From the NCBI GenBank assembly GCA_026003175.1, contig BPGT01000001.1:1154839-1218838 (forward strand): a DNA stretch of 64,000 nucleotides. The letters are read 5' to 3'. The DNA is from Armatimonadota bacterium (GTDB lineage Bacteria > Armatimonadota > HRBIN16). Positions 32,228-39,566 of this stretch are shown one piece after another. The notes under the pieces are model-generated. The model was not told the DNA's origin. It saw only the letters and a list, made by a program, of their open reading frames with translations, and made no database searches. Within the stretch, counting starts at the first letter, position 1. The number at the start of each line of letters is the position of its first letter. The position numbers and the translations under genes were made by a program.

Positions 32228-34330
32228 TTATCCTCCGCGCAGAACCTGCTTTGCCAGCGCAACAGGAAATACTTTACCACTTCCTGCCTGACGTAGTAGC
32301 GTTGTAATCACGGTCAGTGTCCACCCTGAGTCTACCACATCGTCCACCAGAAAAACAGGTTGGGATATATCCCGCCACGGTTGTACCTCGAACGCACCCT
32401 CCAGATTGCGCACCTGATGGAAGCTGTTCTGCATCTCCTTTTGGGGACGGGTTTCGCGCACTTTGCGCACGCAGGGCACAAAGGGTAGCCCCAACCTCTG
32501 GGCAAAGCGCAGGGCAAAGTCAGCTACCAGGCGGGGATGTCTGAGAGAGGGGACACAGGTCACCCACTGCGGAGCAGGTTGAGGTTGCCATCGTTTGACC
32601 ATCTCCACCATCCCCTCGACCAGTTCATCACTGTAGAAGCCGTCTGTATATTTTCCTTGCTTGACCAGTATGCCCCATCCTGCATCTCCCCACAGGCATA
32701 GGGCACGTCCTTCCTCGTGGCGCAAGGTCTCTGGTATTTTGCCTTGCCCACCCGAGATGAGTAGTCCCTCTTTTGCTGGCCACATTTTGCGCGGTTCTAT
32801 GGATATCTCAGAACGTCGCAGGAACCGCACAGCCTCTATCACCGTTTCGCGCTCTACGGAAGGCGATATGATTGGATGACCAGTACAGCAGGCACATTTG
32901 CCGCAGGGCTGGGCATGAGGGTCGTCCAGAGCCTGCTGTAGGAAGAGCATGAGGCACTGCGTGCTGTGCATGTATTGCTGCATCTGCTCCTGCTCGGCAC
33001 GACGCAGGGTGGTAAGCCTCTGGACGCGTTCCATATCGGGCTGGTATGGTACTGGGGCAAGCACGTATTTATTGCCCATCTGCAGAATGGGCGATGGAGT
33101 CTCAGAAGACAGCAGCCGCAGCACTTTGTCTATCTGCTGGCGTGATAGGTTGACGTAGCGTTCCATCTCCGCGACGCTCAAGCCGCTGCCGTGTTGCTGC
33201 AGGGCGTGCAGGATAGCATCCGTATGTGCTTGTGGTGGAAACGCCGTGCGGATGAAGTAATCCACTATCTCATCATCCTCTTCTCCACCCAGCAACACAA
33301 TCATCGCATTGTCTAGCGACCTGCCAGCTCTGCCAATTTGCTGGTAGTAGTGTACGACTGAGCCGGGGCGTTGAAAGTGTACGACAAAACCGAGATCAGG
33401 CTTGTCAAATCCCATGCCCAGCGCCACGGTTGCCACCAGCGCTTTCACATCGTTGCGCAATAACTTCTGCTCCAAATCTTCGCGCTCGGTGTTGTCCAAA
33501 TCGGCATGATAGGCGTATACCTGCCATCCTTTCATCTGTAACCAGTTAGCGACACGTTCCGAGTCGGCAACGGTCAGGGTGTAGATAATGCCACTACCGG
33601 GCAATTCGTGCATGTGGTTGGCGAGCCATGCCATACGTTCCGCCTGCGAGGGCAAGATGATGTTCTGCAGCCGCAGGCTACGCCGTGCTAAATTGCCTCT
33701 GTGGATGCTTAAATCTTCTCCCAGCTGTTGCCGAATGTCTTCCACCACCCTGTTGTTGGCGGTCGCAGTGGTAGCGAGCACAGGCACATTGCGCGGTAGC
33801 AGGCGCAACACCCTGACAATGCGTCGATAGTCTGGACGAAAATCATGTCCCCAATCTGAAATGCAGTGTGCTTCGTCAACGATGAGCATCAAGATACGCG
33901 AAGCAACACGCTGCAGAATGTTTCCGTAAAAATCAGCGTTGGCAAGACGCTCTGGACTAATGAGCAGCAGCTCCACCTCATCTGCACGCAGGCACTCCTC
34001 GATGGCATGCCATTGTTCAGTATTGGCGGAGTGGATAGTCACAGCGCGGACGCCCATGCGCGTTGCCATCTCGATCTGGTTGCGCATGAGCGAAAGCAAG
34101 GGGGAAATCAACAGCGATAGACCTTTATTGCTGTTTTGCTCGCGGAGTAGCTTCGCCGCGATGAAATACACAATGCTTTTGCCCCAGCCTGTTCGCTGCA
34201 CCAGAAGCAACCGTTTGCGGTGTGCTGCCAGAGCCTCTATCGCTTCCCATTGACCATCGCGAAAAGCGGCTGAGAAGTCTTGTAGTCCTGCCCGCAACAG
34301 AGCCAGCGCACGCGTGTGTAATGTACTCAA
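32228..34330 (-). CDS. recQ: RecQ-type helicase fused to a phosphoribosyltransferase domain
   Basis: 700 residues from a TTG start preceded by AAGGTGGCGGTAG. Helicase motifs are QRTGWGKS (Walker A, K51), DEAHCISDWGHDFRP (DEAH 152-155), LATTATANNRV and YYQQIGRAGRSLDNA. A zinc-binding part (CGKCACC) and a winged-helix-like region of about 355-420 follow. The last ~200 residues hold a type I PRTase domain with the PRPP loop VFLVDDVVDSGWTL at about 659-672, as in ComFC-like proteins. Walker A replaces the usual GGGKS with TGWGKS. RecQ unwinds DNA 3'-5'; the PRTase role is unknown. The gene follows topA by 60 bases and pairs with the DprA-like gene. Confidence 0.9.
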   Translation of the reverse strand: MSTLHTRALALLRAGLQDFSAAFRDGQWEAIEALAAHRKRLLLVQRTGWGKSIVYFIAAKLLREQNSNKGLSLLISPLLSLMRNQIEMATRMGVRAVTIHSANTEQWHAIEECLRADEVELLLISPERLANADFYGNILQRVASRILMLIVDEAHCISDWGHDFRPDYRRIVRVLRLLPRNVPVLATTATANNRVVEDIRQQLGEDLSIHRGNLARRSLRLQNIILPSQAERMAWLANHMHELPGSGIIYTLTVADSERVANWLQMKGWQVYAYHADLDNTEREDLEQKLLRNDVKALVATVALGMGFDKPDLGFVVHFQRPGSVVHYYQQIGRAGRSLDNAMIVLLGGEEDDEIVDYFIRTAFPPQAHTDAILHALQQHGSGLSVAEMERYVNLSRQQIDKVLRLLSSETPSPILQMGNKYVLAPVPYQPDMERVQRLTTLRRAEQEQMQQYMHSTQCLMLFLQQALDDPHAQPCGKCACCTGHPIISPSVERETVIEAVRFLRRSEISIEPRKMWPAKEGLLISGGQGKIPETLRHEEGRALCLWGDAGWGILVKQGKYTDGFYSDELVEGMVEMVKRWQPQPAPQWVTCVPSLRHPRLVADFALRFAQRLGLPFVPCVRKVRETRPQKEMQNSFHQVRNLEGAFEVQPWRDISQPVFLVDDVVDSGWTLTVITTLLRQAGSGKVFPVALAKQVLRGG

Positions 34331-38114: not shown

Positions 38115-38141
38115 ACTATCCCGACCCGGGGGAGGTGGAGT

Positions 38142-39566
38142 ATGAGGATGTGGCAGCGATTTAGCGAACGCGCCCGCTATGCTATCTTCTACGCTCAGGA
38201 AGAAGCAGAACGTTTTGGCGGGAACTACGTGAGCACCGAGCACTTGCTACTGGGACTGATACGCGATAACGAATCCACTGCGGTCAAGGTGCTTCAGCAA
38301 CTGGGGGTAAGCCTTAGCCGTTTGCGCATGGAGCTGGAGCGGCAGGTATCGCGAGGAGAGGGCGGGGTTGAGGGGCAAACGCAGTTAACCCCTCGTGCCA
38401 AGCGCGCGATGGACTTCGCCTACGATGAAGCGCGCCTGATGGGAGACAACTATATCGGCACCGAGCACCTGCTGCTGGGATTACTCCGCGGGGCAGAAGG
38501 GCTGGCGGGCAGAGTACTCCAGCAGATGGGGGTAGACCTCGAGCGGGCACGGATGGCAGTCAAAGCGGTGCGAGAGGGCGAGGGGCTACCTTCCGCACAG
38601 GTCACTATCTCGCGAACAGACGTGCTGCGCGGTTTGCAGGGGCGAGACCTGCTGGGCATCAACGACCTCACCTCTGAAGAGTGTGTCGCCCTGCTGCAGC
38701 TGGCGGCGGAAATGAAGCAGGCGACCCGTGTGGGCGCAGAGGTGATCCGCTGGAAGCGTCCGCACCTGCTGGCGATGATTTTCGAGAAGCCTTCTCTGCG
38801 CACGCGCTTCACCTTCGAAGCGGCGATGGTGCAGCTGGGTGGACACGCCATCTATCTCTCTCCCAACGAAATTGGGCTGGGCAAACGCGAGAGCGTAGCA
38901 GACGTGGCGCGCAACCTGGAGCGATGGTGTCAGGTCATCATGGCGCGCGTGTTCGCGCACCAGACGCTGGTGGAACTGGCGCAGAATGCGAACGTTCCCG
39001 TCATTAACGCCCTGAGCGACCTCGAACACCCTTGCCAGGCACTCGCCGACTTCCAGACGCTCATCGAGCACAAAGGCGAGGCGAAGGGCAAACATCTCGT
39101 GTTCGTGGGCGACGGCAACAACGTGGCGCACAGCCTGATGCTGCTGGCGGCAAAGCTGGGCACGCACTTTACTATCGCCTGCCCGCAGGGCTACGAGCCG
39201 AACGAGCATATCCTGTCGCTGGCGCGAGAAATCGCCCACGCCACCGGCGCGTTGATTACCGTCATGCGCGATCCGAAGGAGGCGGTGCGCACCGCCGATG
39301 CCATCTACACCGACGTATGGGCGAGTATGGGGCAGGAGCACGAGGCGGAACAGCGCAAGCAGGTGTTCATGCCCTATCAGGTGAATGCGGAACTGCTCCA
39401 AGCGGCGAGGTCGGGCGCGATAGTGATGCACTGCCTGCCCGCCCATCGCGGCGAGGAGATTACCGACGAGGTGATGGACGGCGCGCAGTCGGTGGTGTTT
39501 GACCAGGCGGAGAACCGTCTGCACGCACAGAAAGCGGTGCTCGCCGCGCTGATTGGAGATTGGTAG
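38142..39566 (+). CDS. argF: ClpC N-domain fused to ornithine carbamoyltransferase
   Basis: 474 residues in one uninterrupted frame. Residues 1-145 are two Clp_N repeats of the ClpC/ClpA type: FSERARYAIFYAQEEAERFG with NYVSTEHLLLGLIRD, then LTPRAKRAMDFAYDEARLMG with NYIGTEHLLLGLLRG. After a linker of about 145-160, a complete OTCase follows: LRGLQGRDLLGINDLTSEE, the carbamoyl-phosphate loop FEKPSLRTRFTFE (218-222), HPCQALAD (296-303), DVWASMGQE and HCLPAHRGEE (430). OTCase makes citrulline from ornithine; Clp_N domains bind adaptors or substrates of Clp chaperones. No internal stop or ribosome site separates the parts. The OTC gene normally encodes about 310 residues alone. No AAA+ domain is present. 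Confidence 0.9.
   Translation: MRMWQRFSERARYAIFYAQEEAERFGGNYVSTEHLLLGLIRDNESTAVKVLQQLGVSLSRLRMELERQVSRGEGGVEGQTQLTPRAKRAMDFAYDEARLMGDNYIGTEHLLLGLLRGAEGLAGRVLQQMGVDLERARMAVKAVREGEGLPSAQVTISRTDVLRGLQGRDLLGINDLTSEECVALLQLAAEMKQATRVGAEVIRWKRPHLLAMIFEKPSLRTRFTFEAAMVQLGGHAIYLSPNEIGLGKRESVADVARNLERWCQVIMARVFAHQTLVELAQNANVPVINALSDLEHPCQALADFQTLIEHKGEAKGKHLVFVGDGNNVAHSLMLLAAKLGTHFTIACPQGYEPNEHILSLAREIAHATGALITVMRDPKEAVRTADAIYTDVWASMGQEHEAEQRKQVFMPYQVNAELLQAARSGAIVMHCLPAHRGEEITDEVMDGAQSVVFDQAENRLHAQKAVLAALIGDW

Follow-up and report, generated by a model that had tools for sequence, protein, structure and literature searches.

INTRODUCTION

The best-known role of Clp N-domains is at the front of AAA+ unfoldases. 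In ClpC, residues E32, E106, and T7 have been assigned to the phosphoarginine sites, R9 contacts the neighboring M-domain in the resting state, and free arginine does not activate ClpC through the N-domain (PMC12583610). Mycobacterial ClpC2, an autorepressor that also confers protection from cyclomarin A, is a precedent for Clp_N outside AAA+ proteins, as the ligand-binding part of a repressor (PMC10030653). Here, we analyze a stretch of 64,000 nucleotides from an Armatimonadota genome (contig BPGT01000001.1; referred to as the window) in which a ClpC-type N-domain is joined to ornithine carbamoyltransferase (OTC). The original prediction knew of no enzyme built in this way, and no account of a Clp_N-OTC fusion was found in the literature searched. 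The fusion is a real build and apparently has not been described so far.

RESULTS

Domain structure of the fusion protein

The fusion gene occupies positions 38142 to 39566 (+) of the window as a 474-codon frame without interruption. A Shine-Dalgarno-like GGAGGTGG at 38131 to 38138 (+), read from the sequence, suits the ATG at 38142. Pfam assigned Clp_N (1.7e-33, in two stretches), OTCace_N (1.3e-44, residues 168 to 309), and OTCace (8.1e-63, residues 315 to 469) to the 474-amino-acid protein, which scored 401.1 bits with NCBIfam TIGR00658 against an equivalog cutoff of 280.85. The frame and both domain libraries therefore confirm the fusion as it had been predicted. The ClpC-type N-domain spans residues 3 to 146 (38148 to 38579, +) and consists of two Clp_N half-repeats. 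What had been called two Clp_N repeats are indeed two Pfam stretches, but together they make up one ClpC N-domain, not two. A linker of residues 147 to 165 (38580 to 38636, +), predicted to be disordered at 147 to 156 (pLDDT < 50), leads into the carbamoyl-phosphate domain of OTC (38643 to 39068, +) with SLRTR (218 to 222) and HPCQ (296 to 299), which is followed by the ornithine domain (39084 to 39548, +) with DVWASMG and HCLPA (430 to 434). SLRTR, HPCQ, and HCLPA lie at the residues where they had been placed beforehand and are invariant across 18 aligned Clp_N-OTC fusions. The Pfam and NCBIfam searches found only Clp_N and OTC domains in the 474 residues, and hence neither AAA+ modules, as anticipated, nor an M-domain, nor a transcription factor or DNA-binding part joined to Clp_N.

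The fused Clp_N is 64% identical to the start of ClpC from the same genome over residues 2 to 171, and the nearest solved chains are ClpC N-domains for Clp_N and P. furiosus OTC for the enzyme part. AlphaFold2, run with an 18-row alignment, returned two confident domains and a disordered linker at 147 to 156 (pTM 0.67), and Foldseek placed the OTC part on Pyrococcus furiosus 1A1S with a TM-score of 0.95 and 53% identity. The fold agrees with solved OTCs, and the fusion is predicted to contain a trimeric, catalytically active OTC. Linkers span 20 to 178 amino acids among the Clp_N-OTC fusions and measure about 20 in the window protein, and the models predict a tethered two-domain geometry. An assembly or frameshift artifact was rejected, the frame being intact in congeners G001 to G006 and G009 and in many other families.

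Genome context

The fused gene is the sole OTC match in its genome, where the other carbamoyltransferase is an aspartate carbamoyltransferase; the expectation that there would be no second argF was borne out. It lies between era (-) and a glycosyltransferase gene (+), outside any arg operon, and argH was found in the same genome. Elsewhere in this genome, an ilvE-like aminotransferase gene is followed by a gene for a McsA-McsB-like fusion (P0002) and then by clpC. P0002 (L143:2301-3725, +; C1, ∼712.3 to 713.7 kb) joins a McsA-like zinc-finger region to a divergent McsB arginine kinase. The McsB part falls below NCBIfam cutoffs but keeps SSRxRxARN, NEEDHLR, and YGEG, as judged by eye against McsB. 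ClpS, a candidate partner, was not found in the window genus. The clpB gene of the window genome (L032/L144; C2, ∼1.3066 to 1.3076 Mb) appears to be split in two, one frame of 191 amino acids and then an AAA+ frame; that of a congener is one long frame, and the split would be a frameshift or sequencing error. The window also encodes a 700-amino-acid RecQ-like helicase (32228 to 34330, -), of which Pfam confirms the helicase part only and whose C terminus resembles a ComF-type phosphoribosyltransferase by eye.

Distribution of Clp_N-OTC fusions

The fusion, which the original prediction knew from one genome, is present in relatives. It is full length in seven congeners (G001 to G006 and G009) and truncated by a contig end in G008, and no OTC was found in the congener G007. 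Among 291 genomes of the phylum, 12 families carry it (f1, f3, f5, f6, f7, f13, f17, f18, f22, f24, f38, and f39), including multicopy builds, namely (Clp_N)2-OTC in f3 and (Clp_N)3-OTC in f18. Other members of the phylum carry OTC on its own or, in f12 and some of f13, joined to ArgD. In these ArgD-OTC fusions, ArgD (acetylornithine aminotransferase) lies N-terminal to OTC (L077 and L079 to L082 in f12; L071 and L072 in f13), and on the OTC tree they fall at two distinct positions. Two f22 fusions (L050:3001-4911, -; L053:2998-4872, -) have a segment like the N-terminal part of T2SSE (GspE/PilB) in the linker, which in L053 falls below the curated cutoff. Outside the phylum, where our searches are a sample and not proof of absence, Clp_N was joined to OTC at none of 79 OTC loci from other taxa, and the fused build was absent among the OTC matches listed for a second phylum (350 genomes, reached via a Dehalococcoidia locus).

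Clp_N at the argD/argF junction

In many lineages of the phylum, argF lies within an argB-argD-argF-argG-argH operon, and Clp_N is encoded at the argD/argF junction, either as a free gene or, more usually, fused to argF. The order argB-argD-clpN-[clpN-argF]-argG-argH occurs in f5 G051 and G230 (L263 and L265), argB-argD-clpN-argF-argG-argH at L058, and argD-clpN-argF-x-argG at L262. A free clpN lies directly 5' of argF in f7 (G101 and G094) and in f2. Further arrangements are argB-argD-clpN with argF elsewhere (L269; f7 G099) and argD-clpN-pyr/car-argF-argG-argH (L131; f5 G060). Judged from gene order, the link between Clp_N and arginine operons in this phylum is solid, and this placement is the strongest evidence tying Clp_N to arginine synthesis. 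A mere relic of operon position is unlikely in the window genus because the lone fused gene there still keeps Clp_N.

Repeated origin and selection

At least 13 switches in linkage to Clp_N occur on the OTC tree, not counting the copy that a contig end truncates. For a tree of Clp_N and the phylum's ClpC N-domains, the AU test rejected a single clade of OTC-linked Clp_N, a group chosen before the tree was inspected (P = 7e-12, log-likelihood difference of 108); the domain is short, and many forks of this tree are unresolved. The same test rejects a single ancient fusion followed by losses only. The Clp_N domains of f2 (G037), f22 (G076), and, weakly, f18 (G028) fall beside ClpC of their own families. 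Since OTC-linked Clp_N is not one clade, the trees require that the domain was joined to argF more than once or was replaced from clpC by gene conversion.

Within the window genus, mean identity is 63% for the fused Clp_N, 89% for OTC, and 99.5% for ClpC's own N-domain, with median dN/dS values of 0.19, 0.077, and 0.004, respectively, and the dN of the fused Clp_N is about four times that of the attached OTC. By these ratios, the fused Clp_N is under purifying selection that is far looser than that on ClpC's own N-domain.

Phosphoarginine pocket and McsB

Conservation was ranked over 138 positions in 32 single-copy fusions. Position E106 is glutamate in all 32 and ranks 3rd; E32 is glutamate in 31, aspartate in one, and ranks 7th; T7 and T81 are threonine or serine throughout. 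R9 and R83 rank 101st and 89th. In the window protein, the pocket is formed by S8 and E33 and the second site by a threonine and a glutamate. By alignment, E33 (codon at 38238 to 38240, +) corresponds to ClpC E32, a phosphoarginine-site glutamate (PMC12583610), and E108 (codon at 38463 to 38465, +) to ClpC E106, the second such glutamate. Groove position 80 is apolar, with leucine in 31 of the 32 fusions. The comparison with ClpC that had been proposed thus found the pocket glutamates retained and R9 and R83 drifting. Since the pocket ranks high and R9 low, the ligand pocket is held while the ClpC-internal contact drifts.

The phylum's ClpB also keeps E32, E106, T7, and T81 (alignment row L032 and further sequences). 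The pocket residues are therefore not diagnostic and were rejected as proof of phosphoarginine binding, which their retention may permit without showing it. In the free Clp_N proteins of f7 arginine operons, E106 is lost. McsB was found in the window genome, in 31 of the 37 genomes with a fusion, and in none of the 4 split ones, an association that is not significant by Fisher's test (P = 0.06) and null in an independent-pairs test that corrects for kinship. McsB was not detected in families f2, f18, and f6, which carry the link, or with the arginine-operon Clp_N genes of f2 and f7.

The original prediction had suggested a tie between arginine synthesis and the Clp/phosphoarginine system. Its first part holds, in that free clpN genes lie at argD/argF, joining was repeated, and a McsA-McsB fusion is encoded upstream of clpC. 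The phosphoarginine part is not established, given that ClpB keeps the pocket, the McsB association is not significant, and McsB was not detected in f2 and f7.

Other Clp_N fusions in the phylum

Relatives within the phylum also carry Clp_N on NadC, PTPS/QueD, RidA, GGDEF, proline racemase, a class-IV (IlvE-like) aminotransferase, IspF, P450, ABM monooxygenase, an ECF sigma factor, and part of a carbonic anhydrase (L133, L135, L136, L137, L227, L229, L232, L237, L243, L247, and L248). The gene for the aminotransferase fusion lies directly upstream of clpC. At L134 (2199-3668, +), Clp_N precedes a degenerate OTC-like domain in which most substrate motifs are missing, and a separate normal OTC is found in the same genome. 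Clp_N duplicates readily in the phylum; in 39 outside genomes, it occurs almost only in ClpC- or ClpB-sized frames. Having been fused to many enzymes, Clp_N is a portable module in this phylum, and its presence on unrelated enzymes makes it more general than had first been supposed. OTC, RidA, IspF, and PTPS are trimers or hexamers, and one idea is that Clp_N partners provide multivalent display of the N-domain.

DISCUSSION

Our preferred reading, to which we assign a probability of about 40%, is tentative: Clp_N would dock OTC to the ligands of ClpC's N-domain and thereby bring arginine synthesis under Clp control. An OTC with all substrate motifs bears a ClpC-type N-domain on what is predicted to be a flexible tether. 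OTC being a trimer, the fusion would display three or more N-domains and might bind the ligands that ClpC's N-domain binds, namely, phosphoarginine-marked or partly unfolded proteins and adaptors of the McsA/McsB type. Docked in this way to the Clp quality control machinery, OTC would follow Clp/arginine kinase activity in its own level or activity. We prefer a recruitment tether to a rigid allosteric arm because linkers of 20 to 178 amino acids disfavor a fixed allosteric interface and because a ClpC-like N-domain was taken up repeatedly. In its favor are the arginine operon placement, the repeated joining to argF, the dN/dS of 0.19, the retained pocket residues, the linkers and the modeled geometry, and mcsAB next to clpC. 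The retention of the pocket in ClpB, the nonsignificant McsB association, the lack of a detected McsB in f2, f18, and f6, the loss of E106 in f7, and the fast evolution of the fused Clp_N count against the tether. A more specific proposal, that Clp_N is a portable enzyme-side phosphoarginine reader through which metabolic enzymes, chiefly those of arginine synthesis, would respond to the McsB/ClpC arginine-phosphate system and quality control would set arginine production, seems unlikely to us.

Clp_N could instead be a generic solubility or chaperone tag whose hydrophobic groove would hold the attached enzyme or nearby unfolded stretches in cis and protect aggregation-prone oligomeric enzymes, with no ClpC signaling. 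Its attachment to many unrelated enzymes, the long and variable linkers, and the apolar groove position 80 (leucine in 31 of 32) all fit such a tag, which nevertheless leaves unexplained the preference for arginine operons, the free clpN genes within them, and the repeated uptake of ClpC-like N-domains in particular; we regard it as rather unlikely. Those free genes enter differently into the proposal that Clp_N is a regulatory domain or subunit of OTC, its guanidinium pockets binding arginine or phosphoarginine and controlling OTC directly, somewhat like PyrI on aspartate carbamoyltransferase. A clpN that is free beside argF in some genomes and fused to it in others forms a Rosetta-stone pattern, and both pocket glutamates are nearly invariant in the fusions. 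However, disordered linkers of 20 to 178 amino acids and a pTM of 0.67 speak against a fixed interface, as does the failure of free arginine to activate ClpC via the N-domain against the regulator itself (PMC12583610), and direct regulation of OTC is in our view doubtful.

Largely neutral accretion, in which clpC-derived clpN copies arrived at the argD/argF junction, were fused by stop codon loss, and persist as tolerated passengers, would fit the readiness with which Clp_N duplicates and the fourfold-higher dN of the fused domain relative to its OTC. A dN/dS of 0.19, frames that are intact in every uncut congener copy despite departure from the arg operon, and repeated origin make it improbable. 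The recruitment tether remains our working model, and the data suggest that in this phylum arginine production is tied to protein quality control in a way not described so far. Here, Clp_N repeatedly accompanies arginine synthesis within operons and also serves other enzymes as a portable addition. Should the domain still read ClpC ligands, protein quality control would be coupled directly to metabolism, an idea that is directly testable since OTC is readily assayed. The natural Clp_N-enzyme chimeras also bear on studies of what the ClpC N-domain binds.

Comparison with known systems

The fusion shares with anabolic OTC (ArgF, TIGR00658; P. furiosus 1A1S) a complete enzyme with all substrate motifs, but a disordered linker connects this enzyme to a ClpC-type domain at the N terminus. 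With the N-domain of the Hsp100 protein ClpC, it shares 64% identity to the ClpC start of its own genome and the phosphoarginine-site residues; unlike ClpC, it has no AAA+ or M-domain, and R9, which belongs to ClpC's resting state, varies among the fusions. Like mycobacterial ClpC2, it uses Clp_N without AAA+, attached to another functional domain (PMC10030653). In contrast to ClpC2, the partner of Clp_N here is a metabolic enzyme that lies C-terminal to it.
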